Below are positions 42,992 to 60,622 of a stretch of 64,000 nt of DNA, one piece after another. The DNA is taken from assembly GCF_030758295.1 (NCBI RefSeq), contig NZ_CP132335.1, positions 1,588,412 through 1,652,411 on the forward strand. Reading direction: 5' to 3'. The notes under the pieces were generated by a model. It searched no databases. It worked only from the letters and a program-made list of their open reading frames with translations, and had not been told where the DNA came from. The first letter of the stretch is position 1. Every line of letters begins with the position of its first letter. The position numbers and the translations under genes are program-made. Source of the stretch: Pararhizobium sp. IMCC21322. GTDB taxonomy: Bacteria > Pseudomonadota > Alphaproteobacteria > Rhizobiales > GCA-2746425.

Positions 42992-43066
42992 GCCCGGGTA
43001 GCTCAGGGGTAGAGCAGCGGATTGAAAATCCGCGTGTCGGTGGTTCAAATCCGCCCCCGGGCACCA
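42992..43066 (+). tRNA. tRNA-Phe (GAA)
   Basis: 75-nt cloverleaf. Acceptor stem GCCCGGG (42992-42998) pairs with CCCGGGC before the discriminator A; CCA is encoded (43064-43066). The anticodon loop TTGAAAA between GCGGA and TCCGC gives anticodon GAA. The T-arm contains GGTTCAAATCC. Its 3' 25 bases are part of the 32-bp direct repeat that bounds the island to the right; the gene itself is complete. Confidence 0.97.
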
Positions 43067-43073
43067 TTTTTCA
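43042..43073 (+). repeat. Left attachment repeat (3' end of tRNA-Phe)
   Basis: 32-bp direct repeat, identical to 58055-58086. It comprises the T-arm, the 3' acceptor strand and CCA of tRNA-Phe plus the next seven bases. This is the classical att core of a tRNA-targeting tyrosine-recombinase element. Confidence 0.9.
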
Positions 43074-43624
43074 TAAATAATTACAATAGTTTGAAAGATT
43101 TTTGAATATAGTTTGCGATGTCAATGATTTGGCTGGGTTGCAAACAGGCAGCAAGTTTGTTTTTTGACTGTGACGATCAATCGATGGCCCGTTGATCTTG
43201 CAACTGTGCTGCCGAAAACAAATTTGAATTGTTTGGCTTAAGCCTTCTCAGAAAAATGTGCATATATAGAGAGTGCGCTTTCGAGGAATTATAAAAAATT
43301 GCTGTTGGGGCTTGTATTAGCCAAACATCAATCCCAGAATTATTCGGGCGAAAGTCTACGAACCGACAACAATCGAGCGGCCATCCTGAATTGGTGTACA
43401 CGCTCATTCGATAAACGACGGGTCATTTGTTTGACCGCAACATAGGCCACTTTTGCTCAAATTGGTTGGTAGAGACCCACGTCCATTTCCCTCGGAAATT
43501 CCTGGTGAAACAGAAGTTTGCTACAGCTTGGCGATCAAATGGTTTGATTTTCAAGACCAGATTGACGGTTACGGTTTCTGATCAACTATGATCGTCCTCA
43601 GCCCAATTTTGGCAGCGGTACTTT
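43074..43624. other. Gene-free left end of the island (551 bp)
   Basis: No reading frame with protein-like features is seen, only a 76-codon minus-strand frame at 43177-43407 without recognisable motifs. This is where a tRNA-linked integrase would normally stand, so it may be the scar of a lost one; no recombinase residues could be recognised in six frames by eye. Confidence 0.5.
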
Positions 43625-44554
43625 CTATCTAACAGGCAAAATGATGGTTGATGTGTTTTGCTGCATGAGTTCGCGGAACGGGCGCATGCCGATTGTCTGG
43701 ATTTCAAATTCATCCAGCCAGCCAGCGATCAGGCCATTACGCAGAGCCTCCGTCTCCTCCACCCGCCAATGTGCACGCGGCGGAACGATCGTTTCAATAT
43801 CACCGGTGACGTTGGGGTGAAGGGCAAAAAATGTGATGCCAGGGTCCAACGCTTCGAGGATCTTTCGATAAGCAGCTGCACCTTCGCCTTTTGGAGCGCC
43901 AGGCGTCATGGCGAAATTGTCCACAAGCGGTTCCTGATTTTGTGCGCTTTGTGCGACAGCTGCGTCCCATTCTGCTTCACCGCCATGGGACTCCAGCTTG
44001 AGTACATCCCGATAGGTTTTGCCGTCGCGCGGAAGCAGCACTGGAAGATCGTATTCCCGGCCCAGACGAAGTGTGGTTTCTAAAAGTGGGGCGCATAGAG
44101 CTGCGCCCATATGCGTATCCAGATGAGTGACGTCAATCCCGGCACCGAGCGCGCGCTCTATTTGCGCCCGCATCTCGTCTTTGGCGGCGGCGGGATCAAT
44201 CCGTTTTGCAAGTGCTGCAACGTTGCTGTGAAAATAACCCGCATCGTCCACCAGGCCTGAATCAGAACTGGCGCGGGTCAGCGGCCCCCAACGATAACTC
44301 GTCCATTCGCTGGTCAATGTCAGGTGGACGCCCAGATCAAGTGTGTCGTCGCCTGCAGCTTCGCTGGCAATCTCAGGAAACCATGGGCACGGCACCATAA
44401 CCGAACCGCAGTTCAGCGCCTCAGAACGCGACAGTTCGAGAAACGCGACATTGGCACCGTGACACATTCCCACATCGTCAGCATGCAGCAGGACGGCAGG
44501 ATGATCGGGGTTCAGTCCCAGAGCCTGCATGGTCTCTGATCGGTTCATCTGCAC
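43625..44554 (-). CDS. YdjC/ChbG-family carbohydrate deacetylase
   Basis: Metal-dependent deacetylase of the ChbG/YdjC family, 309 aa, that removes an acetyl group from an N-acetylated sugar. The metal and catalytic motif LHADDVGMCHGAN (residues 23-35, Asp-Asp) and the second site THLDTHMGA near 143-151 (two His) are intact; HPNVTGD near 248 is a third family element. Start GTG 44554 has AAGGGG close before it; ATG 44548 is an alternative. No signal peptide, so it acts in the cytoplasm on imported sugar. It lies downstream in the minus-strand importer operon. Confidence 0.85.
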   Translation of the reverse strand: MQMNRSETMQALGLNPDHPAVLLHADDVGMCHGANVAFLELSRSEALNCGSVMVPCPWFPEIASEAAGDDTLDLGVHLTLTSEWTSYRWGPLTRASSDSGLVDDAGYFHSNVAALAKRIDPAAAKDEMRAQIERALGAGIDVTHLDTHMGAALCAPLLETTLRLGREYDLPVLLPRDGKTYRDVLKLESHGGEAEWDAAVAQSAQNQEPLVDNFAMTPGAPKGEGAAAYRKILEALDPGITFFALHPNVTGDIETIVPPRAHWRVEETEALRNGLIAGWLDEFEIQTIGMRPFRELMQQNTSTIILPVR

Positions 44555-44593
44555 ATTCCCCTTCTTAGGTTTGTAATCTGATCGGTAGCACCC

Positions 44594-45637
44594 TTACTTT
44601 GTCTCGGTGGTGTGCTGTTGCCCCGGTGTGGAGCGCAGACGGGCGACAGTTTCCGGGTGCGCCGATTGCAGTCGTGCGGGGGGCAGACCGGAAAGCAAAA
44701 GGCCAGCATCATCCGCCACCATCTCTCCGATCCTTAGAAAAGCTTCTTTGATGCCGCCAGCGCGGTGCGCTGAAAGGATCATATGATCATGCCTACGCAC
44801 TGGATCATCAGGAGACACGGGCTCTTGCGGGAAAACATCGGTTGCCGCCCGGAAGCGCCCCTCACGAGAGGCTTCCAGAAAGGCATCCCAATCCACGATG
44901 GGGGCACGCGACATGAGCAGGAAAGCGGCTCCGCCAGGTATCAGTGCAAGTTGTTCTGCGCCGATCATTCCGTAGTTTTCTTCGGTCACCCCGGCGAGGA
45001 CAAATGTCACTTTTGATTTCGATAAGACACCCTCAAGTGAATCAGGAACCAGACCGTGTTCACGCAATGCGCCTGGTGGCACCCAAGGATCGAACACCCG
45101 GATCGTTGGCCTGAAAGGTTGCAAAAGAGGTAGCAGCGAACGGCCCAAATGGCCGAAGCCAACAAAGCCCATATCCGCTCCGGTCAGGAGAAACGATCCG
45201 GCATTATCTGCCTTCCCATAACCCTCTCGTCCGGCGCGAAAAGCCCGGTCAGCGCGGGTAATACCGCGTGCGGCGTCGATGGCCATGCCCAGCGCCATTT
45301 CCGCTACGGGCAGAGAGAAGGCCGGACCTATTCCCAACACGCGAATTCCGCGCGCAAAGGCAATCTTGTAGTCGACATTGGGATAGAAATTGCCTTCAAC
45401 GTTAATGATCGCCCGAAGTGGTTCGGCGCGTTCTAGTCGTTCGGCGGGCAGGTCTGTCTGCCCTATGATCAGGGAAGCTTGGGGCAAATATTCGTCAACC
45501 AAGGCGTCGTCCATACGCCCGGCACCTTCATGTGAGATCACACGACCCAGAGAATTCAGCCGTTTCCAATCTTCGGCACTGAAAATTAGTTCGCGGCTTC
45601 GCGGCGAGGGATCGAAGATGATGACAGGCTGACTCAA
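44594..45637 (-). CDS. D-isomer-specific 2-hydroxyacid dehydrogenase (island)
   Basis: NAD(P)-dependent dehydrogenase, 347 aa. The NAD motif is VGFGHLGRSLLPLL near residue 158; catalytic residues are Arg in LMSRAPIVDW, Glu in FPQEPVSPDDP and His in SAHRAGG. It is only distantly like the one at 34038. The start is a TTG at 45637, three bases after the previous stop, with GGAG about 9 bases upstream. In this island it may reduce or oxidise a sugar-acid-derived 2-oxo acid. Confidence 0.85.
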   Translation of the reverse strand: MSQPVIIFDPSPRSRELIFSAEDWKRLNSLGRVISHEGAGRMDDALVDEYLPQASLIIGQTDLPAERLERAEPLRAIINVEGNFYPNVDYKIAFARGIRVLGIGPAFSLPVAEMALGMAIDAARGITRADRAFRAGREGYGKADNAGSFLLTGADMGFVGFGHLGRSLLPLLQPFRPTIRVFDPWVPPGALREHGLVPDSLEGVLSKSKVTFVLAGVTEENYGMIGAEQLALIPGGAAFLLMSRAPIVDWDAFLEASREGRFRAATDVFPQEPVSPDDPVRRHDHMILSAHRAGGIKEAFLRIGEMVADDAGLLLSGLPPARLQSAHPETVARLRSTPGQQHTTETK

Positions 45638-45639
45638 AA

Positions 45640-46017
45640 TTATTGCTCCGCGACCAGTTTCAAGGGTTCTTTCAAGACGAGTTCCTGTCCTTTGAAATAG
45701 AGCCTGTATTCACGAGATGACGTTTCACCAACCCCCGGCTTTTCTGCAGCCAGATAGAGTCTATAGACGTCCTGGTTTTCGAATTTGAACTGTCCGTCTT
45801 CATCGGTTTCCGCTGTTCCCTTTGGGCGCGTGACGAGCAGCGTTCGTTCAGACAGGCTCACAATTGCTCCGGTTACCGGAGCCCCGTCGGGACCTATGAC
45901 CCGACCAGCGATGAGCCCGGTATTATTGGCTTCAACGTAGATATTCCAGAACGCGATCAGCACCGCAAGCATGCCGAAGGTGATCGAAAAACGATTAAAA
46001 AGCCAGCGGCGTACCAT
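45640..46017 (-). CDS. Membrane-anchored protein with carboxypeptidase-regulatory-like domain
   Basis: Small protein of 125 aa from the ATG at 46017, five bases after the permease stop. It has a basic N-terminus, one hydrophobic helix at about residues 11-28, and then a periplasmic beta-sandwich of CarboxypepD_reg/transthyretin type from about 33 to 122 (GLIAGRVIGPDGAPVTGAIVSL and DEDGQFKFENQDVYRLYL). Such domains bind peptides or sugars or act as spacers. Its place directly behind the two permease genes suggests a partner of the ABC transporter. An upstream in-frame reading runs inside the permease and is not used. Confidence 0.75.
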   Translation of the reverse strand: MVRRWLFNRFSITFGMLAVLIAFWNIYVEANNTGLIAGRVIGPDGAPVTGAIVSLSERTLLVTRPKGTAETDEDGQFKFENQDVYRLYLAAEKPGVGETSSREYRLYFKGQELVLKEPLKLVAEQ

Positions 46018-46022
46018 AGCGC

Positions 46023-46835
46023 TTACCCCTTCGTCGCGCCGGAGGTGAGGCCAGTAATGAATTCCTTTTGCGCCAGAAGGAAGATCAGCAGTCCGGGCAC
46101 AAGGACCATTACGCAGAAAGCATAGAGCGCGCCGGTCGTGTCCTCTACCACACTCAGGAATCGTGAAAGCCCGAGTGGTAGCGTTTGCATCTCGGCATCG
46201 CGCACAATCACCAGCGGCCACAGGAAGCTGTTCCATGACCAGATAAAGGACAGAATGACATTGGTAGCGATTGCAGGTTTTGTGAGCGGCATGATGATGC
46301 GGAAGACGATCATCCATTCCGGCACACCATCAATCCGGGCAGCATCAATCAGGCTTTTCGGTATGGCCTCAAAGGCCGCCTTGAAGATGAAGATGCAGAC
46401 GATAGTCGACATCAGCGGCAGCGCCATGCCGATGTATGAGTTCAGGATGCCCAATTTGGCGGTAATCAGATAAGCGGGAATAATGGTCACTTGAAAGGGG
46501 ATCATCATACAGCTCAAAAACAGCAGCACAGTTAGTTTTTTACCCGGAAACTCGCGGGTTAACGCATAGCCGGCAGTCGCGTTGAGAACAACATTTGCAA
46601 TAACAACCAGCACCGAGACGACGACCGAATTGAAGAGATAGCGCACGAAAGGGATGGCGTACCACACATCAACATAGAAAAACGGCTGCGGGTTCTCCGG
46701 CAACAGAGCGGGCGGATAGGCAAAAATGTTTTCGCCCGTCAGGCTAGTCTTCAACACCCAATAGAAGGGGATGAGCATGATGGTCGAAACGATCATCAGC
46801 ATGATGTGGACGGATAAGGTCGATCTTTTGCGCAT
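46023..46835 (-). CDS. Carbohydrate ABC transporter permease, MalG-like (island)
   Basis: Inner-membrane permease, 270 aa, six hydrophobic segments in the CUT1 layout. The EAA loop is visible as IPKSLIDAARIDGVPEWMIVF near residue 159 onward, and the MalG-like C-terminus AQKEFITGLTSGATKG is present. AGGAGG lies before the start. It follows the MalF-like gene by seven bases. Confidence 0.92.
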   Translation of the reverse strand: MRKRSTLSVHIMLMIVSTIMLIPFYWVLKTSLTGENIFAYPPALLPENPQPFFYVDVWYAIPFVRYLFNSVVVSVLVVIANVVLNATAGYALTREFPGKKLTVLLFLSCMMIPFQVTIIPAYLITAKLGILNSYIGMALPLMSTIVCIFIFKAAFEAIPKSLIDAARIDGVPEWMIVFRIIMPLTKPAIATNVILSFIWSWNSFLWPLVIVRDAEMQTLPLGLSRFLSVVEDTTGALYAFCVMVLVPGLLIFLLAQKEFITGLTSGATKG

Positions 46836-46842
46836 GACTGCT

Positions 46843-47889
46843 TTAGCCTCCTGTCTTCACTGCACCCGCATCACCGCCTGCCAATCGGTTACCGATAAGA
46901 GCGAGCGCGAGGAAGAGAAGAAAATTCACCACAGTCATCGCTGCTGCATAGTCAAACTGCGATAACTTGAAGGCGGATGAGTAGATGTATGTGATGAGAA
47001 GATCAGTTGATCGTCCCGGCCCGCCGCCGGTCATGACGAAGATGAGATCGAAGGCGGTGAATGAGTTGATAATGCCGACCACGAAACACAGGAATAGAGA
47101 CGGTCGCAGAAGCGGCATGGTAATGCGCCGGAATTGCTGCCAGCGGCTTGCTCCGTCAATTGAGGCAGCCTCATAGAGATTAGGCGGGATGCCCTGCAGA
47201 CCCGTGAGCAGAATGATCATGTAGAAGCCAATCACTTGCCAGATTGACGCGACAATGACCGCAGGCAAGGCGTAGTCGAAACTCTCAAGAAACGGGATTC
47301 CCTGGTCTATGACGCCCAGCGAGAGGAGAATGTAGTTGATCAATCCGACCTTCTCGTTGAACAGCCATTGCCAGATGACACCCACGGCAACTGTCATGAC
47401 GGGGTAGGAGATGAAGACGATTGTACGGTAGATGTTACGTCCCCGAACCGGGCTGTCCACCAGGATCGCGATGCCCAGGGCCAGGAAAATACCAATTGGC
47501 GCAGAGGCCATGAACAGAACGGTATTCCAGAGGACCTCCCGGAAGGCCTCGTCGTAGATCAGCATTTCCTCATAGTGGTACAGACCTGCGAATTCTGCCG
47601 GTTTGTAGGGCGACCAGTGCTGGAACGATAGAACACCGTTCCAGATAAGCGGAATGATCCGGTAGAGCGCAAAAATGAAAAGTGATGGTGCCAGAAAGAC
47701 CCATACAAGGGTAAGTTCCCGGGTCCGTTTGCGCCCGGCGAAGGCGCGAAGCCCTCGCCGGACGTTAGAGTGTCCGGATGCAGATACGCCATCTACTTTG
47801 GTGGTATCATTGGACCCGGTGGCGGTGCTGGGAGACACCGCCATCTTTTTCGGCACTGAACCGACAGCCATTCGATTATCTGGTGTCAT
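46843..47889 (-). CDS. Carbohydrate ABC transporter permease, MalF-like (island)
   Basis: Inner-membrane permease, 348 aa. The first about 55 residues are polar (Ser/Thr/Lys-rich cytoplasmic tail, longer than usual for CUT1 permeases); the first helix is at about 59-80. The EAA loop is near residues 230-250 (IPPNLYEAASIDGASRWQQF). It forms the channel with the MalG-like subunit. The binding-protein gene lies 20 bases upstream. Confidence 0.92.
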   Translation of the reverse strand: MTPDNRMAVGSVPKKMAVSPSTATGSNDTTKVDGVSASGHSNVRRGLRAFAGRKRTRELTLVWVFLAPSLFIFALYRIIPLIWNGVLSFQHWSPYKPAEFAGLYHYEEMLIYDEAFREVLWNTVLFMASAPIGIFLALGIAILVDSPVRGRNIYRTIVFISYPVMTVAVGVIWQWLFNEKVGLINYILLSLGVIDQGIPFLESFDYALPAVIVASIWQVIGFYMIILLTGLQGIPPNLYEAASIDGASRWQQFRRITMPLLRPSLFLCFVVGIINSFTAFDLIFVMTGGGPGRSTDLLITYIYSSAFKLSQFDYAAAMTVVNFLLFLALALIGNRLAGGDAGAVKTGG

Positions 47890-47909
47890 GGCCAGTGCCT
47901 CTTGCTGTG

Positions 47910-49157
47910 CTAGCGGCGTCGCAGGACGCGGTTAACCTTGCGTTCTGCATCAGCCAACGCTTCGGCAGCGCTTTTTTCACCAAGCAGGGCGGCCTGAAGC
48001 TCAGGATAGAAGACGTCCTTGACGGCCGCATCATTCGCCAAAGGCCAGTTTCCGGTCAGCTTGTCGAGGTTCTGCAACTGTGTTTCCAGCACTGGAACCA
48101 CGGCAGGAACTTTCTCGGCGAACAACTTCATCAATTCTGCGTTTTCAATGCTGTCACCGGTCAAGTTGTTGGTTGCTGAACCCATCGCATAGGCACCTTT
48201 GCCACTGGTAGCGATCTTCATGAAATCCCATGCTTGCTCAGGATATTTTGACCCTTTGGAGAGCACCAGCGAGTGGGAGTTAGGGGTCGACATACCGCCT
48301 GGCATGTTGATTGCCTGAACTGTGTTTTCGTCAACCCAGTCCGACTTGCCCTTGAACCACAGGAAGGCAGGTGCGTGGGCATGAAGCATGCCTACAGTTC
48401 CGGCAGCAAAGGCACTGTTCGGCTCAACCCAGCGGCCCGTCCAGCTGAGCTTGTTAATAGCCCCACTTTTCGTTGCTTCCGCCAGACGTTCAACCAGCGC
48501 AACAGCTTCAGGTGTATTGAATGCCGCCTCCGTCAGGTCTTCATTTACGAACTCAATACCGTTCATCGCGAAAAGTGGCCAGTAGAGCCAATCGAAATTG
48601 AGGGTCATGAAGCCGGTTTTTTCGCCACCCGACATTTTCTCTGCCGCAGCCATCAAAGACTCAAAATCGCTGGGAGCTTCGGTGACGCCCGCTTCGTCCA
48701 TCATCTTCTTGTTGAGGAAAAGCAGCGTCTTGGAAATGTAGAGCGGAACGCCGTAGTTCCTGCCTTCGTATTTCCAGCTGTTGATGACCTCGGGGATCAT
48801 CCGTTCGGTGTAGTCCGTATCGCGCTCCAATAAAGGCGTCAGGTCAACAAGGCCACCTTGGGAAGCGTATTCCAGCCAAAGACCGCCTTGAATGTCAACA
48901 ATGTCAGGTGGTGTGCCAGCCACGACCTGTGTCTGATAGAACGTGGGGATATCCGTCCCCTTCATATCGATCCGTTCGACTTCAAAATCAGGGTGCAGTT
49001 TTTTGAACTCATCGACCCAAAGCTGAAAGCCCTCTTGGTAGTAAGAGATATTCCAGGTAACGACAGTAATTTTCTTTTGCTCCTGCGCCACGGCCGGACC
49101 AAACAGGGCAAGCCCCAGCATGGCGGCGCCCGCGAGAGCCTTTGATAGAATATGCAT
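47910..49157 (-). CDS. Carbohydrate ABC transporter substrate-binding protein (island)
   Basis: Periplasmic receptor of the SBP_bac_1 family (CUT1), 415 aa. Signal peptide at residues 1-24 (ending GPAVAQ). Mature motifs include VDEFKKLHPDFEVE, QVVAGTPPDIVDIQGG and the late FAAGTVGMLHAHAPAF and PNSHSLVLSKGSKYPEQAWDFMK (abridged), all usual. AAGGAGGAG precedes the ATG. It is the first gene of the importer part of the minus-strand operon. Family members bind di- and oligosaccharides or sugar derivatives. Confidence 0.92.
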   Translation of the reverse strand: MHILSKALAGAAMLGLALFGPAVAQEQKKITVVTWNISYYQEGFQLWVDEFKKLHPDFEVERIDMKGTDIPTFYQTQVVAGTPPDIVDIQGGLWLEYASQGGLVDLTPLLERDTDYTERMIPEVINSWKYEGRNYGVPLYISKTLLFLNKKMMDEAGVTEAPSDFESLMAAAEKMSGGEKTGFMTLNFDWLYWPLFAMNGIEFVNEDLTEAAFNTPEAVALVERLAEATKSGAINKLSWTGRWVEPNSAFAAGTVGMLHAHAPAFLWFKGKSDWVDENTVQAINMPGGMSTPNSHSLVLSKGSKYPEQAWDFMKIATSGKGAYAMGSATNNLTGDSIENAELMKLFAEKVPAVVPVLETQLQNLDKLTGNWPLANDAAVKDVFYPELQAALLGEKSAAEALADAERKVNRVLRRR

Positions 49158-49246
49158 TTAGATCTCCTCCTTTTTTATAACCACTCATTTTGCTGAAAGC
49201 CGTTGCGGGGTCATGCAACCCCCTGTCTCAACAATTCGATACGCGA

Positions 49247-50281
49247 TCAGTCGAAGTTCAGCATGACCTCCTTACCTTCCGACAGAGAGCGTTCTGCTTC
49301 CAGGCAAACAAGTATGCGCTTGCGCGCATCCTCACCTGATACAATTGGACGTCCCTCGCGAAAGGCCTGCACGGAAAGCCGCAACTGCTCGTCAAGTTCA
49401 AACAACTCACCCGAAGCGCCAAGCTCAAGATTTTCCACAGGCTCGTCACCCGATTTGAGTTTTAGTTCGAATGAAGGCTGGCGCGTTCGATCCTGCGCAC
49501 CCGACCACCAGGTCCGCAAAGAACCCTTTGTTCCAACGATTTCCATGACGTGATGATGTTCGAACCCTGAAAGGGACTGGGTCAGCACGGCATATTGTCC
49601 GTTTGGCCAGCGCATGATTGTGGTCAGATTATCAGCCATGGCCGCGCCGCCATTTGTGGCATCCCGATCACGGGCGTTTCCCGTCGCCATCAAAGAGACG
49701 GGATCTCCCAATTCTTCGAAATACCACATAATGCAATCATAGAAGTGGACCGGTTCTTCCAAAATCCATGAACCAACCTTGTCCGCATCGTAGCGCCATC
49801 CTCCAGACCCTCCGCGATAAGGAAATCTGAAAAGGCTCATGTGAGCATAAAGGGGTGTACCGATTGCGCCGTCATCCACGATCTTGCGAATGCGTCCCCA
49901 CTGAGTAGACAGGCGTAATTCATGACCGATTGTGAGCACTTTGCCTGATCGTTTCGCCGCGTCAATCAGACGGTCGCAAGAAGCGACCGATAGGGCCATC
50001 GGCTTTTCAAGCAGAACGTGTTTGCCGGCATTCAGTGCAGCAACGCCGATTTCTTCGTGCAGATGGTTGGGCACGACGACATCGATTGCCTCGATTGCAG
50101 GATCGTTAATAAGTGCATCGGCATTGAGATGGATTTTGACGTCTGGAAATCGCTCACGTGCTTTCGCCGCTGTCGCTTCGCTTGAACAGGCAATGGCCGT
50201 TAGCTCTGCATCGGGTGCCTTGGCAATTGCCTCGGCGTGATGCTGTCCCCATAGCCCATAACCAACAAGACCGAACTTCAC
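49247..50281 (-). CDS. Gfo/Idh/MocA-family NAD(P)-dependent oxidoreductase 1 (island)
   Basis: Sugar dehydrogenase-type protein, 344 aa from the GTG at 50281, chosen because GAGGAAAG stands 8 bases upstream and the Rossmann strand (VKFGLVGYGLWGQHHAEAI) begins at once; a TTG at 50311 would add ten residues. The catalytic EKPMA motif is near residue 92 and the second-domain ILEEPVHFYDCIMW stretch carries the expected His/Asp pair. It leads the minus-strand operon and is divergent from the ATPase gene, with a 215-bp shared control region. Confidence 0.88.
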   Translation of the reverse strand: MKFGLVGYGLWGQHHAEAIAKAPDAELTAIACSSEATAAKARERFPDVKIHLNADALINDPAIEAIDVVVPNHLHEEIGVAALNAGKHVLLEKPMALSVASCDRLIDAAKRSGKVLTIGHELRLSTQWGRIRKIVDDGAIGTPLYAHMSLFRFPYRGGSGGWRYDADKVGSWILEEPVHFYDCIMWYFEELGDPVSLMATGNARDRDATNGGAAMADNLTTIMRWPNGQYAVLTQSLSGFEHHHVMEIVGTKGSLRTWWSGAQDRTRQPSFELKLKSGDEPVENLELGASGELFELDEQLRLSVQAFREGRPIVSGEDARKRILVCLEAERSLSEGKEVMLNFD

Positions 50282-50392
50282 TTTGCTTTCCTCAACTTGA
50301 TCCGAAGCCAATTCCGCACAAAAGAATCCTCAGAAATTTGAGCGTCTTGGCTGTCAAAAAAACCATACTTGATATTAATAGACCATATGTGG

Positions 50393-50405
50393 TTGTCTCT
50401 GACAA
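50393..50405. promoter_or_regulatory. Palindrome in divergent island promoter region
   Basis: TTGTC-TCT-GACAA, a 5-bp inverted repeat with a 3-base spacer, midway in the 215-bp gap (50282-50496) between the two island operons. It is a candidate site for the IclR regulator encoded at 52560. Short palindromes occur by chance, so support is weak. Confidence 0.3.
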
Positions 50406-50496
50406 GCGGTCGTGGAAATTCCGCTGCATTGATGCCGCCGTGGTTCTTTACCCCACAGGTTGGTAGACCAGTTGATTGAAGGGGAGGGGAAGTTCC

Positions 50497-51612
50497 ATGG
50501 CCACAATAGAGCTTAACAAGGTGATCAAGCGATACGGGGACGTCCAGGTCATCCATGGGGTTGATCTCTCAATCGCCGACAAGGAATTTGTGGTTTTGGT
50601 TGGGCCTTCTGGCTGCGGAAAGTCAACTTTGTTGCGCATGATCGCTGGTCTGGAAGACATATCAGACGGGACCATCTCAATCGGTGGCAGTGTCGTGAAC
50701 GAAAAGGCGCCAAAGGAGCGTGACATCGCCATGGTGTTCCAGGACTACGCGCTCTACCCGCACCTGGATGTTTATCGAAACATGTCTTTCGCTCTTGAAG
50801 TGCGCCGCATGAAGGCAACCGAGATTCGCCGCCGGGTTGAGCGTGCCGCAAAAATTCTCAATCTTGAAGAGCTGTTTGATCGTAAGCCGGCACAATTGTC
50901 CGGGGGACAACGCCAGCGTGTAGCCATGGGCCGCGCTATGGTTCGCGAGCCTGTAGCATTCCTGTTTGATGAGCCGCTCTCGAATTTGGACGCAAAGCTG
51001 CGCGGCGAAATGCGCACCGAAATCAGGAAGCTGCATCAGGAGGTGCAGAAGACCATTGTCTATGTGACCCACGATCAGGTGGAAGCCATGACACTTGCTG
51101 AGCGCATTGTGGTGATGCGCAGCGGGTATGTGGAACAGATTGGTACGCCCAATGAAGTTTATAACCACCCCGCGACGCTGTTTGTTGGTGGTTTTATCGG
51201 AGCGCCTCGGATGAACCAGCTACCTTGTGTTTATGATCCCAAAAATGGCGGCAAACTCTCAATTGCAGGCGGTCCGGACATCTCTGTTCCGACCCACCTC
51301 ACTGAGGCCACTTCGGGACTTGAGGGGCGTCGGCTGGTGTTGGGAATACGTCCCGAGGCCTTCATTTTGGCCAAGGCTGACAGCACTGCGGACGCGTTTA
51401 CGGCGAAGATAGATTTCCTCGAACCGCTCGGTTCCGACACACTTGTATTCTTGCACGTTGGGGATGTTGAAGTGATCGCGCGCCTTCCACCGCTTGAACA
51501 TCTTAGGGAAGGCAACGAAATTACGCTCGCTCTGGATTCACCTAAACTGCATCTCTTCGACGCAGACACCGAACAGGCCATCACGAAGTCTTCACCAGTT
51601 GCAGCGACATGA
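50497..51612 (+). CDS. Carbohydrate ABC transporter ATP-binding protein, MalK/UgpC-like (island)
   Basis: ATPase for the island importer, 371 aa from the ATG at 50497 (GGGGAGGGG upstream). Walker A GPSGCGKST near 36-44, signature LSGGQRQRVAMGR, Walker B FLFDEPLSNLDAKLR and switch His (THDQ) are intact; the MalK-type TOBE domain follows from about 240 (LGIRPEAFIL). It is encoded on the opposite strand from the permeases, and its stop overlaps the NagB-like gene by four bases. Confidence 0.92.
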   Translation: MATIELNKVIKRYGDVQVIHGVDLSIADKEFVVLVGPSGCGKSTLLRMIAGLEDISDGTISIGGSVVNEKAPKERDIAMVFQDYALYPHLDVYRNMSFALEVRRMKATEIRRRVERAAKILNLEELFDRKPAQLSGGQRQRVAMGRAMVREPVAFLFDEPLSNLDAKLRGEMRTEIRKLHQEVQKTIVYVTHDQVEAMTLAERIVVMRSGYVEQIGTPNEVYNHPATLFVGGFIGAPRMNQLPCVYDPKNGGKLSIAGGPDISVPTHLTEATSGLEGRRLVLGIRPEAFILAKADSTADAFTAKIDFLEPLGSDTLVFLHVGDVEVIARLPPLEHLREGNEITLALDSPKLHLFDADTEQAITKSSPVAAT

Positions 51613-52475
51613 ACCAGGAAACGAAAGCGGATGTTTTGCCGCTTCTTATCCCCAAGGATATGGTTGGCGTTGGCTCGCCGATCCCGCTGGAGACAGTACC
51701 TGATCCAGCCGCTCTGACCGAGCGTTTCGCCAAAGATCTTATGTCCGAATATCTGGCAGCTAAAGCGTCGGGCAGGGACAAAATTGTCTTTATCGTTCCG
51801 GTTGGACCCGTGGGACAGTTCGAGCAATGGGCAGACAGGTGCAACGCTGAAAAGATCAGTTTACGCGATCTCGTCGTTATCAATATGGATGAGTATTTGA
51901 AACCCGACGGAAGCGGCTTCATTTCCATTGATGATCCTCTTAGTTTCCGGCGTCACATGGACCAAAAATTCTACAATCGCCTTGACCCGGAGCTGGCCCC
52001 GCCATTGGAAGCGCGCCATTTCCCCAATCCCTTACACCCCGAACAGACCGGCGAACTGATCGCCACACATGGTGGTGTTGATGCGTGTTTTGGGGGCGTT
52101 GGTATCACCGGCCATGTGGCCTTCAATGACCCGCCGGAACCTGGAAAGCCGATGGATCTGGACGAATTTGCCGATCTGCCCACACGTTGTGTTGAGCTGT
52201 CTCGGGAAACACGCCTGATCAATTCAGTCACAGTCTGTCGAGGTAATCTGTCGCGCATACCGCGCAAAGCTATCACGGTTGGTATGCGTGAAATTCTCAA
52301 CTCTCGTCATGTGCGGATCTACATGAACAGACAATGGCAGTGTGCGGTTGTGCGCCAGTTGCTACACGGTCCGGTTACGCCGGACGTGCCTGCTTCTCTC
52401 CTTCAGCGGCATAAGGATGTTCGGGTTGTTGCGGTCGATTTGGTCAGGGAAGTACCAGAGCCGACCCTGGCGTGA
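51609..52475 (+). CDS. NagB-like (glucosamine-6-phosphate isomerase fold) protein with altered active site
   Basis: Protein of 288 aa in the glucosamine-6-phosphate deaminase/6-phosphogluconolactonase superfamily. It keeps NMDEYL with Asp94 (NagB Asp72) and GHVAF with His169 (NagB His143), but the ring-opening residue Asp141 is replaced by Thr167 (GGVGITGH), Glu148 by Asp174, and the phosphate loop LPTGGTP by VPVGPVG (63-69). The phosphate site and acid-base set thus differ from true deaminases. It may act on a non-phosphorylated or differently substituted amino sugar. The start overlaps the ATPase stop (ATGA). Confidence 0.8.
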   Translation: MNQETKADVLPLLIPKDMVGVGSPIPLETVPDPAALTERFAKDLMSEYLAAKASGRDKIVFIVPVGPVGQFEQWADRCNAEKISLRDLVVINMDEYLKPDGSGFISIDDPLSFRRHMDQKFYNRLDPELAPPLEARHFPNPLHPEQTGELIATHGGVDACFGGVGITGHVAFNDPPEPGKPMDLDEFADLPTRCVELSRETRLINSVTVCRGNLSRIPRKAITVGMREILNSRHVRIYMNRQWQCAVVRQLLHGPVTPDVPASLLQRHKDVRVVAVDLVREVPEPTLA

Positions 52476-52559
52476 GATCCGAACGGGCTTGGACAAACGC
52501 CCGTATTTGAAAATACAATGCTATATATGGTAGAGGCAGAATAATTATTGAAATCTGAA

Positions 52560-53396
52560 ATGGCACGTTTTATGGATTCATCTCAACCAGTACTGCGCAC
52601 GCTCAAGGTACTGCAACAATTCACGCAGCCAAGTCATGATGGAATGACTTTGACGGAAATCGCACGGGCATGCGCGATTGCACCCGCTACACTTGGCCGG
52701 ATTGTTAAAACCCTTGAGGCGGAGGGTTATATCGAGCAGGTTGAGCGAGGCCGCTACCGGGCAAATTTCGAAATTCGTAAAGTTCTGGACATGCCGAGCC
52801 ATTATCTTTCACGTTTGGCCCGCGTTCTCGATCATCTCGTCGATGAGACACGGCAGTCATCTGAAGTGATACTGCGAAGCCATGGTGATCTCGTATGGCA
52901 CGCCAAGCGCGAGCATCCCGATCTGGCTATCATCATTCGTGCGCGGCCAGGTTTTCGGCGCGGGCTTCACGAATTGGATGCACTTTCACGCCTGTTTCTG
53001 TCCGCACTTGGTTTGGACGAGGTGCGCGCGCGCTTTAACCTGGATGGGTTTGTGGCGACCGGAGGTGAAGATCAGCCTATTTCAGCGGCAAAGGTTTGCG
53101 CTTTGATCGAAGCAACGGATCCAAACGGCATTGCTTACGATGTCCAGGGCAATGAACACGGCGTGCGGCGTTTCTGCCGCCTCGTTTACGGTGTCGACGG
53201 GGTCCCCCTGCACGCGATTTCCATCGCAGAAGCGGCGCGTATGAATATTGATATTCAGTTGCACATTGCCCGCAACACGCAACTGCTGGAGCGATATGGT
53301 GACGTCCTTGCCGAAGCTGCACGAGCAACGCTTGCTGATCCCGTATCCTCTTCTTCCCAATCCCAAGATGATCTTCAACAATTATGGAGAGCATGA
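52560..53396 (+). CDS. IclR-family transcriptional regulator (island)
   Basis: DNA-binding regulator, about 278 aa. Winged helix at about residues 10-70 (LTEIARACAIAPATLGRIVKTLE), then an IclR effector domain from about 85 to 255. The start is uncertain: ATG 52560, ATG 52572 or TTG 52548. It is the only regulator in the island and follows the NagB-like gene, so it most likely controls both island operons in response to a pathway intermediate. The 3' end overlaps the next gene or nearly so. Confidence 0.87.
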   Translation: MARFMDSSQPVLRTLKVLQQFTQPSHDGMTLTEIARACAIAPATLGRIVKTLEAEGYIEQVERGRYRANFEIRKVLDMPSHYLSRLARVLDHLVDETRQSSEVILRSHGDLVWHAKREHPDLAIIIRARPGFRRGLHELDALSRLFLSALGLDEVRARFNLDGFVATGGEDQPISAAKVCALIEATDPNGIAYDVQGNEHGVRRFCRLVYGVDGVPLHAISIAEAARMNIDIQLHIARNTQLLERYGDVLAEAARATLADPVSSSSQSQDDLQQLWRA

Positions 53397-54351
53397 ATTG
53401 GCGTGGGGTTTGTTAGACAGCTGTGAAGCTGGTTTTCGCTACGGCTTCCTGACCAATCAACTGGTCGATGTTGGCATAAGCGATGCTGATGAGATGTGTG
53501 ATTTCTGGAGTGAGGGCGGTTTCGATACACTTGAGATCGGCCCCACGTTTGATTTATCTGATGAGGCATTGCGTGGTTTTGAAAGCCGGGGGGTGAAGAT
53601 CTCCGATCTCATCTACTGCCGCAATACATTGGCTGCCAATACTTCCGACCGTGAAACGGTTCTCGAAAAACTGCGTCAGCGTATCGAATGGGCTGACCGG
53701 TTTGGCATCCCCATGGTCACGACGTCTGCTGGTTTCCCCGGTCGTTCGGACAACAAGCAGACTTACGACCGGTATGAAGCCATTCGGCCTTTGCCTGCTG
53801 CTGCCATTGACGAATGGGTCCGTGTCTTTACGCCGCTGGTCGAATTAGCAGAATCCAAAGGCGTCAAACTTGCCTTCGAAAACTGCCCATTGATGCAAAA
53901 CTGGGCCATCGCGCCGGATTTGTGGGCGTCGATGTTTGAACGGATCGACTCAAAACAACTCGGGCTGGTTTATGATCCTTCCCATCTGCTGTGGCAGATG
54001 ATCGACCCATATGAACCGCTTGAAGAGTTCGCTGACCGAATTTTTGCAATCCACGCAAAAGACACTCAAATCGATCATGAGCGGCTGGCCCGATGCGGTA
54101 TCCTGTCGGATTTCAGCTGGTGGAGCTATCGTATTCCAGGTCGAGGTCAGCTCGATTGGTCCCGTTTCATGGAAAAGCTGCTCGATATCGGTTTCGACGG
54201 CCCCATCACCATTGAACACGAGGACGCGGATTTTTCAGGTTCTGCCAAGGACGTCAAGGCGGGCATTCTGCAAGGACTGGCTCATCTCAGACATGCGGAA
54301 AAACAAGCGCGAAGCCAACGCGCAAAACTGAGCCAGCTGCAAGAGAGTTGA
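53368..54351 (+). CDS. Sugar phosphate isomerase/epimerase (xylose-isomerase-like TIM barrel)
   Basis: TIM-barrel protein of the AP_endonuc_2 family, about 327 aa from ATG 53368, which overlaps the IclR gene by 29 bases; a TTG at 53398, one base after the IclR stop and with GGAGAG upstream, would give 317 aa and fits equally well. Metal-site features are LAFENCPL (Glu), LVYDPSHLLWQ (Asp, His), IFAIHAKDTQ (His) and TIEHEDADF (Glu), all as in 2-keto-myo-inositol dehydratase or epimerase relatives. Family members isomerise, epimerise or dehydrate sugars and inositols, often beside Gfo/Idh dehydrogenases, as here. Confidence 0.87.
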   Translation: MIFNNYGEHELAWGLLDSCEAGFRYGFLTNQLVDVGISDADEMCDFWSEGGFDTLEIGPTFDLSDEALRGFESRGVKISDLIYCRNTLAANTSDRETVLEKLRQRIEWADRFGIPMVTTSAGFPGRSDNKQTYDRYEAIRPLPAAAIDEWVRVFTPLVELAESKGVKLAFENCPLMQNWAIAPDLWASMFERIDSKQLGLVYDPSHLLWQMIDPYEPLEEFADRIFAIHAKDTQIDHERLARCGILSDFSWWSYRIPGRGQLDWSRFMEKLLDIGFDGPITIEHEDADFSGSAKDVKAGILQGLAHLRHAEKQARSQRAKLSQLQES

Positions 54352-54414
54352 TGTCACCGAACAGTCAGTTCGATTGACGGACACGTCTTGCGGCTCATTG
54401 ATGGAGGAAGCCTG

Positions 54415-55596
54415 ATGGGTGCCGACGGTCGAAAATTGAAGATGGGTATGGTCGGTGGCGGGGCAGGCGCATTCATTGGCCATGTTCACCGCCGGGCAGC
54501 CGAACTGGATGGCGAAATCGAGCTCGTGGCGGGGGCGTTTTCCTCTCAACCCGAGAAGGCACAAAAATCCGCACAGGAACTGGGGTTGGACCCGGAGCGC
54601 AGTTATCTGGACTGGTCCCAGATGATGATTTCGGAAGGGACAAGACCGGTCGACGACAGGCTGGATTTGGTTGCCATAGTAACGCCCAATCATCTTCATT
54701 TTCCGGTCGCGAAGGCGGCAATCGAAGCTGGCTTCCATGTCATGTGTGAAAAACCGATGGTGCGCACAATCGAGGAGGCGGAGACGCTTTGCAGCTTGCT
54801 GGAGGAACGGCAGGTGTTTTTCGGGCTATGCCATACCTACACGGGCTATCCCATGATCAGGCAGGCACGTGCCCTTGTGCAAAACGGAAGGCTGGGACGC
54901 ATCAACCGTGTCGTTGTCAACTATACGCACGGCAACATGGTTGGCGTTGCGGCAAATGAAATGCGCCGGCGTTGGCGCGCCGATCCTGAAAAATCCGGTA
55001 TATCCAATGCGATGGGCGATATTGGAACCCATTGTCATAACTTGATTAGCTTTATTACCAACCTGTCCCAATCTGAGATCTGTGCCGATCTGCATGCCGC
55101 GCAACCAGGTGAATTGGACAATGAAGGGACTGTTCTCGTTAATTTCGAGGGCGGCGCGAAAGGGTTGATCCACGTCTCGCAACTATGTGTTGGCGACGTG
55201 AATAATTTGTGGATCAAGGTCCACGGTGATGAAGGCTCGATAGAGTGGAAGCAGACAGAGCCAGAGACCCTCTGGTTTCGTCAGGCTGGAAAACCAGCCA
55301 GCATGATAAACCGCGGTTTTGGCGATCTATCCGAGGAAGCCAGTCGGGCAAGCCGCCTTCCGCCCGGCCATCCCGAAGGGTTCATAGAGGCATTCGCTAC
55401 GCTCTACGCCGATTTCGCAAAAGCGATACGGTCTGACGATCGCAGCATGTGTCTGGTGCCGGACCAGAAAGATGGCATGCGCGGGATTCGCTTCGTGCAT
55501 GATTGTGTTGCAGCAAGCCAAAGCCCAACGAAATGGCACGCCATCGCAATTGAGCAGGCGGTCACGTTACCAAAAGAGAATGGAAAGCAGACATGA
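54415..55596 (+). CDS. Gfo/Idh/MocA-family oxidoreductase 2 (island)
   Basis: NAD(P)-dependent sugar dehydrogenase-type protein, 393 aa from ATG 54415 (GGAGGAAG upstream). The Rossmann motif is GMVGGGAGAFIGHVHRRAA near residues 11-30, and the catalytic Lys lies in CEKPMV near 113. The GxxxGAFIGxxHR form and the length resemble the branch that includes 3-dehydro-sugar enzymes and IolW/IolX-like proteins. It overlaps the sulfatase gene by four bases, suggesting that their products are needed together. Confidence 0.87.
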   Translation: MGADGRKLKMGMVGGGAGAFIGHVHRRAAELDGEIELVAGAFSSQPEKAQKSAQELGLDPERSYLDWSQMMISEGTRPVDDRLDLVAIVTPNHLHFPVAKAAIEAGFHVMCEKPMVRTIEEAETLCSLLEERQVFFGLCHTYTGYPMIRQARALVQNGRLGRINRVVVNYTHGNMVGVAANEMRRRWRADPEKSGISNAMGDIGTHCHNLISFITNLSQSEICADLHAAQPGELDNEGTVLVNFEGGAKGLIHVSQLCVGDVNNLWIKVHGDEGSIEWKQTEPETLWFRQAGKPASMINRGFGDLSEEASRASRLPPGHPEGFIEAFATLYADFAKAIRSDDRSMCLVPDQKDGMRGIRFVHDCVAASQSPTKWHAIAIEQAVTLPKENGKQT

Positions 55597-57116
55597 CGAA
55601 GCGACCAAACATTCTATTCATCATGTCAGATGACCACGCAGCCAATGCCATCAGTTGCTACGGGTCTGGTCTTAACCACACACCAAACCTTGACCGCATC
55701 GCAACACAAGGAATGCGGCTGGACCATTGCTATGTGACCAACTCGATCTGCACACCAAGCCGCGCCTCAATTCTCACGGGCACCTATAATCACGTCAATG
55801 GGGTGACAACCCTTGAAACGCCGATCAATACGAATGCACCTAATGTGGCGAAGCACCTGCAAGCAGGCGGTTACCAGACTGCAATTGTCGGCAAGTGGCA
55901 TCTGGGCGAGGGTGCGGCGCACCAGCCTTCCGGTTTCGACTTCTGGTCCGTGCTGCCGGGTCAAGGAGAATATTTTGATCCCTACATGATTGAAATGGGA
56001 GAAGAGGTCGAGCTTGATGGCTACGCCACAGATCTCATCACCGACAAGTGCCTCGACTGGATGAAAGCGCGCGACAGGGATCGCCCATTCTTCATGATGT
56101 GCCATCACAAAGCGCCACATCGAAGCTGGGAGCCTCATTCTCGACATAAGGACTTGTATCAGGACGAAATAGCTCTGCCGGAAACATTCAACGACGATTA
56201 CAAAAACCGGGCGAAGGCCGCCGCCGCCGCAACAATGCGTATTCGCGAGGATTTGTCCTATCAGGATCTGGGTTTGGTACAGCCCGAGGGCGGCAATGAA
56301 GTGGGACGGCGTTCGGCACCCGGTTCAACGAACCGGCTCATTCCTTTTTCAGAAGATGTCACGGGGTTGCGTCTGATCGACAAGGATACAGGGGAGACCT
56401 TCACCTTTTCCAGTCAGGACGAACTCGCTCATTTCAAGTATCAGCGCTATTTAAGGCGCTACCTTCAAACCATTGCGTCTATTGACGAGAATGTGGGCCG
56501 ACTACTGGATTATCTGGATGAAGACGGCATAGCCGAGGATACAATCGTCATTTACACCTCTGACCAGGGCTTTTTCCTTGGTGAGCATGGCTGGTTCGAC
56601 AAACGTTTCATGTACGAAGAATCTTTCCAGATGCCATTTTTGGTTCGTTATCCTCGGGCCATTCAGGCTGGATCAGACGCTTACAACATTGCCTGTAACG
56701 TTGACTTCGCACCGACATTTCTGGATTTCGCTGGTCTCAAGGTTCCAAACTATATGCAGGGACGCAGCCTACGACCGATCCTCACCGACAATGTGCCCGA
56801 TGATTGGCCAGATACGGCGTATCATCGATACTGGATGCATCGCGATGCTGAACATAATGCCTATGCGCATTACGGCGTACGCGACCAGCGTTACAAGCTG
56901 ATCTATTGGTACAATGAGGGGTTTGATCTGCCGGGAACGAACCAGGGCGGTCAGGACAGGGAGTGGGAGCTCTTTGATTGCGAGCGTGATCCTCTGGAAC
57001 TCTTCAATCTACACGCTGACCCAGAATATTCGGACGTCGTGCGCGCTATGACCGTCAAGCTTGATGCCAAGATGGAGGAAATTGGTGACGTGCCCATGCA
57101 TGGTGTACTGGAATGA
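55593..57116 (+). CDS. Sulfatase, formylglycine (Cys) type, cytoplasmic
   Basis: Type I sulfatase (alkaline phosphatase superfamily), 507 aa. The maturation motif CTPSRASILTG is at residues 53-63, so Cys53 would be turned into formylglycine by an FGE-type enzyme encoded elsewhere. Metal ligands Asp13-Asp14 (SDDHA), GKWHLG at 100-105 and YTSDQGFFLGEHG further on are intact. There is no signal peptide, so desulfation would take place inside the cell after uptake, which is less common than periplasmic sulfatases. The ATGA overlap ties it to the Gfo/Idh gene. The substrate is likely a sulfated sugar. Confidence 0.9.
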   Translation: MTKRPNILFIMSDDHAANAISCYGSGLNHTPNLDRIATQGMRLDHCYVTNSICTPSRASILTGTYNHVNGVTTLETPINTNAPNVAKHLQAGGYQTAIVGKWHLGEGAAHQPSGFDFWSVLPGQGEYFDPYMIEMGEEVELDGYATDLITDKCLDWMKARDRDRPFFMMCHHKAPHRSWEPHSRHKDLYQDEIALPETFNDDYKNRAKAAAAATMRIREDLSYQDLGLVQPEGGNEVGRRSAPGSTNRLIPFSEDVTGLRLIDKDTGETFTFSSQDELAHFKYQRYLRRYLQTIASIDENVGRLLDYLDEDGIAEDTIVIYTSDQGFFLGEHGWFDKRFMYEESFQMPFLVRYPRAIQAGSDAYNIACNVDFAPTFLDFAGLKVPNYMQGRSLRPILTDNVPDDWPDTAYHRYWMHRDAEHNAYAHYGVRDQRYKLIYWYNEGFDLPGTNQGGQDREWELFDCERDPLELFNLHADPEYSDVVRAMTVKLDAKMEEIGDVPMHGVLE

Positions 57117-57170
57117 GCAATCGGCAGAGGTTTCGTTCCAACGCAGCGTGCCAACCAAACTCCATATCCA

Positions 57171-58035
57171 GGCTCAGGACTCATTAAATCCACCATATGA
57201 CGATAGCTGCAATGCATATGCTTGAAAAGAATGTGTGTGCGCATCTGTGGTATCGAGTTGCTACGCGTCGCCGGTCTTTAAGTCTGCCGAACATGTTTTC
57301 CACCTTGTGGCGTTCCTTGTAGAGGGTTTTGCTAAAACCGGCAGGAAGGTTGCGACCCTTTCGCGGTGGAATGCAGGGCGTTATTCCCTTGGCTTTCAGC
57401 GCAGCCTTAAACTCATCGCTGTCATACCCTTTGTCGCCGATCAGGTGGGATGCTTTCTCAGGAAACGCGGGACAAAGCAGTTTGGCGCCGATGTGATCGC
57501 TTAACTGGCCCTCACTCACGCCCATGATGATCGGACGTCCCTTGCCATCACAGACCGCATGCAGTTTGGAGTTCAATCCACCTTTTGTGCGGCCAATATG
57601 GCGGGGAACATCGCCTTTTTTAGCAAACTGCAGGCAGTTCGGTGGGCTTTCAGGTGGGTGGCATCAATCATAAGCGTATCAGGACTGCCCGCGTCGCTGA
57701 CTAACGCACTGAAGATGCTATCAAAAACACCAGGTGGCTCCATCGGATGAAGCGATTGTATAGCGTCTTATGCGGCCCATGATCCGATGGTGCATCGCGC
57801 CAGCCGTTGGCCGGCAGACAAGCAAAGCGCAATCGAGAGGCGAAGCCCATTCTTGATCACAAAGATAATCCCTGACACCACCACCCGACGATCATCCACA
57901 CGCGGCTCACCATGGGCCAAGGGAAAATACGGCTCGATCTTCGCCAACTGATCCTGCGAAAGCCAAAACAAGTCACTCATGATGAATCACAATTCAGCCA
58001 AAATGGGAATCCAGTCGATTAATAGGTCCTGACCC
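57171..58035 (-). mobile_element. Decayed IS5-family (IS427-like) insertion sequence
   Basis: About 865 bp. Ends at 57171-57187 and 58019-58035 form an inverted repeat matching at 14 of 17 bases (GGGTCAGGACCTATTAA type). Transposase sequence lies between on the minus strand. No clear target duplication was found. It stands 54 bases after the sulfatase stop and 19 before the right att repeat. Confidence 0.82.
57184..57980 (-). pseudogene. IS5-family transposase, frame-disrupted
   Basis: The N-terminal part (58 residues of normal sense from 57980: MSDLFWLSQDQLAKIEPYFP and on to VIKNGLR) is followed by about 37 extra bases and a shift before WRDAPSDHGPHKTLYNRFIRWS resumes in another frame; a further one-base loss follows before GVFDSIF. 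The CTAAAAAAG run near 57614 is the usual programmed -1 slippage site of this group. The C-terminal frame 57184-57576 is intact (GDKGYDSDEFKAALKAKG, FGRLKDRRRVATRYHRC, the DDE part). With the upstream damage it cannot make a full transposase. The comparison is with the family consensus from memory. Confidence 0.78.
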
Positions 58036-58054
58036 TAGGTGTGTAATTTGACAC

Positions 58055-58086
58055 GGTTCAAATCCGCCCCCGGGCACCATTTTTCA
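58055..58086 (+). repeat. Right attachment repeat (tRNA-Phe 3' end copy)
   Basis: Perfect 32-bp copy of 43042-43073. The bases to its left (TTTGACAC) differ from the tRNA, so no tRNA gene is present here. It marks the right border of the island; bases 58087-58177 hold no gene. Confidence 0.9.
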
Positions 58087-58177
58087 CAGTCTGTATTCTT
58101 TCCATGACCCGTATTCATTCGATGGCCTTTGTTTAATTTGATTTGCTTGCTGGCGGTTCTCCCTTGATCAACTCAGC

Positions 58178-58756
58178 TCAGCCAAGCAGCCCGCCAATCG
58201 CCTCTTTGGCATCCTTCAACAACTGGTCTCTGTCGGCATTTGACACCGCAATCCGTGCAAGTGATATCGTGCCGACAAGAAGACAGGCAATCGTATTAGC
58301 TTTGCTCATTGCGACCGACTCAGCGCCACCAATTGCATTTGCGATCAGCTGCGTTGTTGTTTTGAGCGCTTCGCTTGCCGATTGCCGTGCTGCGCCATCG
58401 GTGCGCGCAGCCTCACCGGACAGCGCTGCCAGTGGGCAGCCATTTGACAAATCATCCACATGCTCAACCGATAGATAAGTGCTGATATAGTTGTCCAGCG
58501 CTTTCAAACGCTCGGCCTGCGTCTCTGCCGCACGCATGGCTCGGGTCACATCCTGGGTGGCGAAATGAAACGCAGCGCCAACCAATTCATCTTTCGATTT
58601 GAAATGACGATAGAATCCACCATGGGTCAGCCCGGCAGAATTCATCACATCCGACACGCTTGTCGTCTCCAAACCTCCGGACCGCAGCAGGCGTGAAGCC
58701 TCTTCAATGATCCGATTGTGACTGCGTTCTTTTTCTGCGGCCGAAACCCTTGGCAT
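58178..58756 (-). CDS. TetR-family transcriptional regulator (next to NmrA-like gene)
   Basis: Repressor-type protein, 192 aa from ATG 58756 (GGAGAA six bases upstream; other in-frame starts lie 3-12 bases earlier). Helix-turn-helix at about residues 24-46 (TTSVSDVMNSAGLTHGGFYRHF), C-terminal ligand domain of the TetR_C_16/AcrR-like kind with a CPLAAL segment typical of the YxaF/LmrA branch. Divergent from the NmrA-like gene; a TAGATG-N8-CATCTA palindrome between them is its probable operator. Confidence 0.9.
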   Translation of the reverse strand: MPRVSAAEKERSHNRIIEEASRLLRSGGLETTSVSDVMNSAGLTHGGFYRHFKSKDELVGAAFHFATQDVTRAMRAAETQAERLKALDNYISTYLSVEHVDDLSNGCPLAALSGEAARTDGAARQSASEALKTTTQLIANAIGGAESVAMSKANTIACLLVGTISLARIAVSNADRDQLLKDAKEAIGGLLG

Positions 58757-58786
58757 CATTTTCTCCAAAATAAGCGCTTGACTCTA

Positions 58787-58806: not shown

Positions 58807-58845
58807 ATATTAAAGATTACCATAATCATCTAAATGGAGTGCCGC

Positions 58846-59985: not shown

Positions 59986-60033
59986 TAGCCAGTCTTTAAG
60001 CCGTTCCAGTAACCCTCAAACAGGAGACGCTTC

Positions 60034-60564: not shown

Positions 60565-60622
60565 GGACAAGGCTTCGACCCGATAATGGTATGAGATTCG
60601 GTGTCATCAGTCCGGTTAACGA

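Follow-up and report, generated by a model that had tools for sequence, protein, structure and literature searches.

Genes between the two copies of the tRNA-Phe 3' end

The 64-kb window analysed here, the whole stretch of Pararhizobium sp. IMCC21322 DNA under study, carries a single tRNA gene, an intact tRNA-Phe(gaa) (ARAGORN), followed by an island of about 15 kb that ends in a second copy of the tRNA 3' end (Table 1). The island was very probably made by site-specific insertion at tRNA-Phe; it resembles a cis-mobilisable element (CIME), and no mobility genes of its own were detected. The perfect 32-bp repeat on which the original prediction had based its boundaries is indeed exact in its coordinates, 43042-43073 and 58055-58086 being identical at 32 of 32 bases, with different bases on both outer sides. 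The repeated unit consists of the last 25 bases of tRNA-Phe and the next 7. Left of 58055 the identity ends at once and no trace of the tRNA 5' part is left, in keeping with the earlier statement that the DNA there is not tRNA: an insertion sequence (IS) occupies 57171-58035, and the 19 bp between it and the repeat (58036-58054) match no explained feature.

In a scan of all 20-mers of the window, no direct repeat of at least 20 bases appeared other than this pair, and no inverted repeat of that length. When 121 bases around the tRNA-Phe end were searched against the 5.25-Mb genome (E <= 0.001), four places were recovered, namely the query itself, the 58055 copy (100% over 32 bases) and two at 77-79% identity, taken to be other tRNA genes; no third copy of the repeat was found in this genome-wide search. 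We roughly estimate the odds of finding one 32-base repeat by chance in 64 kb to be on the order of 1e-10. Two marks of a tRNA-integrated island are copies of the tRNA 3' end, as direct repeats, at either boundary and an intact tRNA at one of them; the locus has both.

Table 1. Features of the tRNA-Phe island and its right flank, in window coordinates.
Feature	Position	Strand	Evidence
tRNA-Phe(gaa), intact, integration target	42992..43066	+	ARAGORN; Rfam RF00005
Left copy of 32-bp repeat (attL core): T arm, 3' acceptor strand, CCA + TTTTTCA	43042..43073	+	Repeat comparison
AT-rich left end (GC 0.419), no long reading frame, no integrase remnant detected	43074..43624	.	No PF00589 match in window
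YdjC-type carbohydrate deacetylase	43625..44554	-	Pfam PF04794 1.8e-44
D-isomer 2-hydroxyacid dehydrogenase	44594..45637	-	Pfam PF02826 8.4e-31
Short protein, carboxypeptidase-regulatory-like domain	45640..46026	-	PF13620 1.8e-7, 31.8 bits, just below cut-off 32.3; G166 homologue
ABC sugar permease	46023..46835	-	Pfam PF00528
ABC sugar permease	46843..47889	-	Pfam PF00528
Sugar-binding protein of ABC transporter	47910..49157	-	Pfam PF13416; PDB 5f7v 2.3e-26
Gfo/Idh/MocA oxidoreductase	49247..50311	-	Pfam PF01408
MalK/UgpC-type ABC ATPase	50476..51612	+	NCBIfam NF008653, above cut-off
NagB-like (glucosamine-6-phosphate deaminase-like) protein	51609..52475	+	TIGR00502 2.6e-28; PDB 2bkv 1.5e-19
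IclR-type regulator	52548..53396	+	Pfam PF09339
Xylose-isomerase-like TIM-barrel protein	53248..54351	+	Pfam PF01261 4.6e-31
Second Gfo/Idh/MocA oxidoreductase	54388..55596	+	Pfam PF01408, PF22725
Sulfatase with CTPSR motif	55593..57116	+	Pfam PF00884, PF16347; PDB 5g2v 1.2e-133
IS with DDE transposase	57171..58035	-	Pfam PF13586; 130-aa transposase part open (57184-57576)
Right copy of 32-bp repeat (attR core)	58055..58086	+	Same place relative to TetR/NmrA as G003 copy
TetR regulator, chromosomal right flank	58178..58768	-	87% aa identity to G003, same place; Pfam
NmrA-like protein, chromosomal right flank	58834..59985	+	86% aa identity to G003, same place; Pfam

Between the repeats lie 13 cargo genes in two divergent arms. 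They are closely spaced, the leftmost lying about 550 bp from the left repeat and the rightmost ending about 55 bp short of the IS. The start of the short regulatory-domain gene was set by eye, the open reading frame (ORF) actually scanned being a longer one (45640-46317) that overlaps the permease gene; the TIM-barrel frame overlaps the IclR gene, and its true start is probably further in. No Pfam family matched the NagB-like protein at 0.001. The sulfatase has no signal peptide obvious by eye and carries the C-x-P-S-R motif, which we take to be the catalytic site of sulfatases; its nearest solved relatives are an N-acetylglucosamine-6-sulfatase (5g2v) and a mucin-desulfating sulfatase (7p24, 2.3e-118), an exo-L-galactose-6-sulfatase (7lha) coming fourth, and with amino-sugar and mucin sulfatases closest and the site present it belongs with the 5g2v group. 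Judging from these families, the substrate is most likely a sulfated amino sugar or small glycoside, which the ABC transporter would import and on which the sulfatase, the YdjC-type deacetylase, the MocA dehydrogenases, the TIM-barrel protein and the NagB-like protein would act inside the cell, under IclR control.

The original prediction had called the cargo a complete catabolic operon pair rather than phage genes or those of an integrative and conjugative element (ICE). Its metabolic content is borne out: the scanned ORFs of the 15 kb yielded no recognisable phage or ICE gene, nor did any relaxase or transfer family match there. Completeness is an overclaim, since no sugar-kinase family matched among the cargo ORFs scanned; in genome G166, genes for a PfkB-type kinase and an aldose 1-epimerase lie beside the related cluster, described below.

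Island boundaries and other elements at tRNA-Phe

The genome of the window (G000) was compared with four congeners (G001-G004), five genus genomes in all and one per species, and further with 397 genomes of the order, 385 drawn from the class, viral contigs (IMG/VR) and plasmid records. The tRNA-Phe gene is present in all five genus genomes; its upstream DNA is 81-92% identical to that of the window in G002, G003 and G004, the G001 match being in pieces only. Independent boundaries on both sides come from G003, a draft in which contig C4 bears tRNA-Phe and phage genes and contig C16 the other end, their adjacency being inferred. The left flank of G003 matches the window at 91% up to position 43068; on C16, an 86% match to window 58055-60572, with TetR, NmrA and carbonic anhydrase genes in this order, comes directly after a tRNA-end copy of 53 bp (window 43018-43070), while the 19 kb past the tRNA and the 991 bases left of the C16 copy have no match to the window (blastn, E <= 1e-5). 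Homology thus stops and restarts at the two repeats, which mark the true ends of the island; the boundaries agree with those of a genome devoid of this insert, though the G003 site is occupied by another element and spread over two contigs.

Two side observations concern G003. About 5.2 kb to the right of the island in G000 (window 60573 to about 65778, L036 1877), with a TetR gene and efflux-type genes recognised by eye, is missing between the same neighbours in G003 and so forms another variable stretch next to the island; and the start of C16 (L032 1-420) consists, again by eye, of near-identical tandem repeats of about 100 bases, which may explain the assembly break of the G003 element.

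The empty site anticipated by the original prediction, with tRNA-Phe directly before the TetR/NmrA pair, did not turn up in any of the five genomes; in two of them (G000 and G003) the pair stands directly behind a second tRNA-end copy. The NmrA protein is not found in G001, G002 or G004 (E <= 1e-60), and the downstream backbone of G002 (L036 from 4474) restarts 12.4 kb past the tRNA. No second tRNA-end copy occurs in about 40 kb each of G002 and G004, 26 kb of G001 and 24 kb of G003 C4.

Other elements use the same gene. A tyrosine integrase lies less than 100 bp from tRNA-Phe in two of the five genomes. That of G003, 43 bp past the tRNA, is followed by phage-type genes (a primase-polymerase with an AAA domain, a SNF2-type helicase, a terminase small subunit, and a weak DNA polymerase A match below the cut-off), and the site appears to hold a prophage; in G004 a different integrase lies 90 bp past the tRNA. 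The 25-base tRNA end was also recovered in six stretches on five viral contigs, L139 and L140 being parts of one. The L138 integrase shares 86% identity with the one in G004, and the L143 integrase 39% with the one in G003; L142 contains the tRNA, and neither the G003 nor the G004 integrase has a match there. L141 (1-10860) is a short provirus at tRNA-Phe: its tRNA and second tRNA-end copy are 10.5 kb apart, an integrase gene adjoins the tRNA, and genes for phage terminase, portal and protease-capsid lie in between. With integrases next to it in G003 and G004 and its end recurring on viral contigs, tRNA-Phe is a hotspot of integration.

Two further loci were noticed near this gene. Directly past tRNA-Phe in G002 (L033 16251-19295) are a cytosine methyltransferase, a Vsr nuclease and a type II restriction enzyme, and none of the four G002 places matching the integrase family PF00589 is there. 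In G001, about 17 kb from tRNA-Phe (L035 534-2883), serine-recombinase pieces (a resolvase domain and a zinc-ribbon recombinase domain) overlap the end of a gene in which the SBP_bac_5 domain is represented by its first part alone; this gene may have been interrupted by an insertion.

The exact repeat, the sharp ends of G003 homology on both sides and the integrase-bearing elements at the same tRNA together support the site-specific insertion proposed originally. Tandem tRNA duplications exist, and the second copy might be the remainder of a duplicated tRNA-Phe, or a chance match, with no element ever inserted; this is very improbable, given that only 25 bases of the tRNA 3' end and 7 flanking bases are copied with the 5' part untraceable, that the window has no other 20-base repeat, and that the 53-bp copy of G003 sits at the homologous place beside TetR, as repeated integration predicts. 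Under the insertion reading, an incoming element of about 15 kb would have carried its own copy of the tRNA-Phe 3' end and joined the chromosome when this copy recombined site-specifically with the host gene; an exchange in or beyond the T arm would have rebuilt the tRNA intact at the left (43042) and left a second 3' end at the right (58055).

Probable recombination core, insertion sequence and the undetected integrase

The extent of the core was compared in all five tRNA-end copies outside full tRNA genes (G003 C16, L139, L140, L141 and L143). Leftward of the 25-base core the match continues for 24 bases in G003, 21 in L139, 22 in L140 and 19 in L143, into the anticodon arm; the L141 copy continues for 9 bases against the window tRNA and for longer against its own tRNA, which differs from the former by one base. 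The right copy of the window continues for 0 bases, with no identity beyond the T arm. Since the G003-type copies reach the anticodon arm and the window copy stops at the T arm, the island was probably inserted by another integrase class than the G003 element; alternatively, the right copy may have changed after insertion. The presumed actor would be a T-arm-specific tyrosine integrase, either lost from the island, into whose right end an IS has since inserted, or encoded outside the unit from the outset and supplied in trans, so that what remains would be a CIME-like passenger of attachment (att) sites and cargo.

The core also bears on a different history, in which the repeats are scars of an older prophage or ICE, later deleted, and the catabolic genes came separately by transposition or homologous recombination. 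A prophage apparently at the same site in G003, an IS near the right end, the presence of only nine of the 13 cargo genes together in the nearest relative and the failure to detect a recombination gene of a first element are all compatible with it. We nevertheless consider it decidedly unlikely: the scanned ORFs of the 15 kb include no phage or ICE gene, the cargo is tightly packed from the left repeat to the IS, and the core begins at the T arm and not at the anticodon arm as in G003, so that the scar is not that of a G003-like prophage, unless the right copy changed later.

Integrase genes usually, though not universally, lie near one end of tRNA-integrated islands, and here none was detected: PF00589 has no match in the window at E <= 0.001 in a search that reads through stops, and the G003 and G004 integrases used as queries gave no match there either. 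The nine PF00589 places of G000 are all outside the window; one of these integrases adjoins tRNA-Leu, and the two best-scoring places are presumably XerC and XerD. Around seven of the nine (six regions) the sole match to the G003 integrase was a weak one at L117 (32% over 99 residues), and these other integrases were discarded as a source of the missing function. A proposed homology between the left non-coding end and the post-tRNA DNA of G002 was likewise rejected, its alignment score of 29 equalling the best of 100 shuffles. That the unit never had an integrase, keeps a T-arm att core distinct from those of the tRNA-Phe elements in relatives, and is excised and moved as a bare att-cargo-att cassette between bacterial families by the integrases of visiting tRNA-Phe elements, seems to us unlikely.

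The IS, which we take to be IS5/IS427-like, is the only mobility gene seen in the island and lies 19 bp inside the right repeat. It differs by 2 mismatches in 865 bases from a second copy at C1:4703711-4704584 of G000, and because of this near-identity it has probably moved recently and arrived after the rest of the island. The second copy adjoins the end of a related IS. With the IS apparently later, and only the first nine genes held together in the closest relative, the suggestion that everything between the repeats was acquired as a unit could not be upheld.

A variant of the insertion history, rather than a true rival, is that an integrase once stood at the right end and was removed by an IS-caused deletion. 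The recent IS 19 bp from the repeat would fit, as would its flanking two-base pairs, TA and TG in the window and therefore not an exact duplication, as against TA on both sides of the other copy. A difference in a two-base duplication is weak evidence, however, and the integrases of G003 and G004 are on the tRNA (left) side, which in the window consists of just 550 bp of non-coding DNA; we hold this variant as a tentative possibility.

Relatives of the cargo and place among known elements

At E <= 1e-100 the binding protein was found in eight of the 397 genomes of the order, G000 included. The closest is G166 (GC about 69%), from another family of the same order, in which nine genes are collinear with the island at 50-86% aa identity: YdjC, the hydroxyacid dehydrogenase, the regulatory-domain protein, the two permeases, the binding protein and MocA, divergent from the ATPase and the NagB-like gene. 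G166 differs in having a LacI regulator between the arms and the aldose 1-epimerase and PfkB-type kinase (Pfam) past the NagB-like gene, and no relatives of the IclR, TIM-barrel, second MocA and sulfatase genes in the 47 kb read. As nine of the 13 cargo genes are collinear with this cluster, the remaining four may be a separate module. The G166 cluster (L130-L132, C10 about 26269-39214) lies about 1.1 kb from a tRNA-Thr, of whose region no repeat of at least 18 bases occurs within the 47 kb.

In a tree of nine binding proteins (tblastn translations) the island protein is sister to that of G166 (76% identity, support 100/100) and does not group with its G002 and G004 homologues (46-49% identity), a placement which fits a horizontal gain, the alternative being a loss of paralogues. 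The sulfatase was found at E <= 1e-200 only in G000 among the 385 class genomes drawn; a second G000 sulfatase elsewhere is 73% identical to it in aa. Sulfatase patterns had no match in the viral contigs. Of 36 plasmid records that matched, none did so over 80% of the region, and among the 20 records listed the matches are confined to short ATPase, sulfatase and tRNA-like stretches; in named genomes the binding protein has two distant loci at 23-25% identity, and the island was not recognised in the open-access literature.

Several points weigh against the insertion history or its horizontal source. Neither excision nor an attP was observed, and none of the four congeners has an uninterrupted site, three being without the right flank at the tRNA and one apparently occupied. 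The contrasts in GC and codon use anticipated by the original prediction failed to appear: GC is 54.1% in 11 island ORFs and 53.4 +/- 1.9% in 61 flanking ORFs, and the codon distance (0.289 vs. 0.259) is marginal and not significant (p = 0.06), in a set of ORFs chosen automatically, to which neither the IclR gene nor the short gene at 45640-46026 belongs. These values rule out foreign composition as evidence for the island. Relatives of the sulfatase at 71% DNA identity occur elsewhere in G000, G003 and G004, so that the gene cannot be called foreign to the genus. With 99.1 of 236.9 bits for TIGR00502, the NagB-like protein is far below the curated NagB cut-off, and a genus sample of five genomes limits the reading of age and strain distribution.

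Among known systems, CIMEs keep attL and attR and miss integration and transfer genes (PMC5704250); they are described as decayed ICEs or integrative and mobilisable elements (IMEs). The island likewise keeps both attachment sites, with no recombination or transfer gene found in the scanned ORFs or the PF00589 search; on the other hand, nothing in it reveals its parent element, and the integrase search revealed no functional tandem element in the window. No related intact ICE or IME parent was found in the viral contigs or plasmids. Such an element would have its own integrase and relaxase, and the window has no PF00589 match, the scanned ORFs no relaxase. The Mesorhizobium symbiosis ICEs and IMEs of the ICEMlSymR7A type integrate at the tRNA-Phe 3' end, the integrase of ICEMlSymR7A being IntS (PMC8627217). 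The target is the same, whereas that ICE is conjugative and carries IntS and the island, at about 15 kb, has no integrase or transfer gene found. The elements of G003, G004 and the viral contigs share the target gene too, those of G003, G004, L138, L141 and L143 differing by an integrase near the tRNA end. We would class the locus as a CIME-like tRNA-Phe island, a well-preserved case of mobile DNA of a familiar kind.

Within one genus, tRNA-Phe is thus used by at least three unlike elements: a catabolic island, a prophage-like element and an integrase-bearing island. A probable sulfated-sugar pathway would be gainable in a single insertion. If excision without an integrase of its own could be demonstrated, the island would be a clean case of metabolic cargo mobilised in trans; for the present it is a good example, though an ordinary one.

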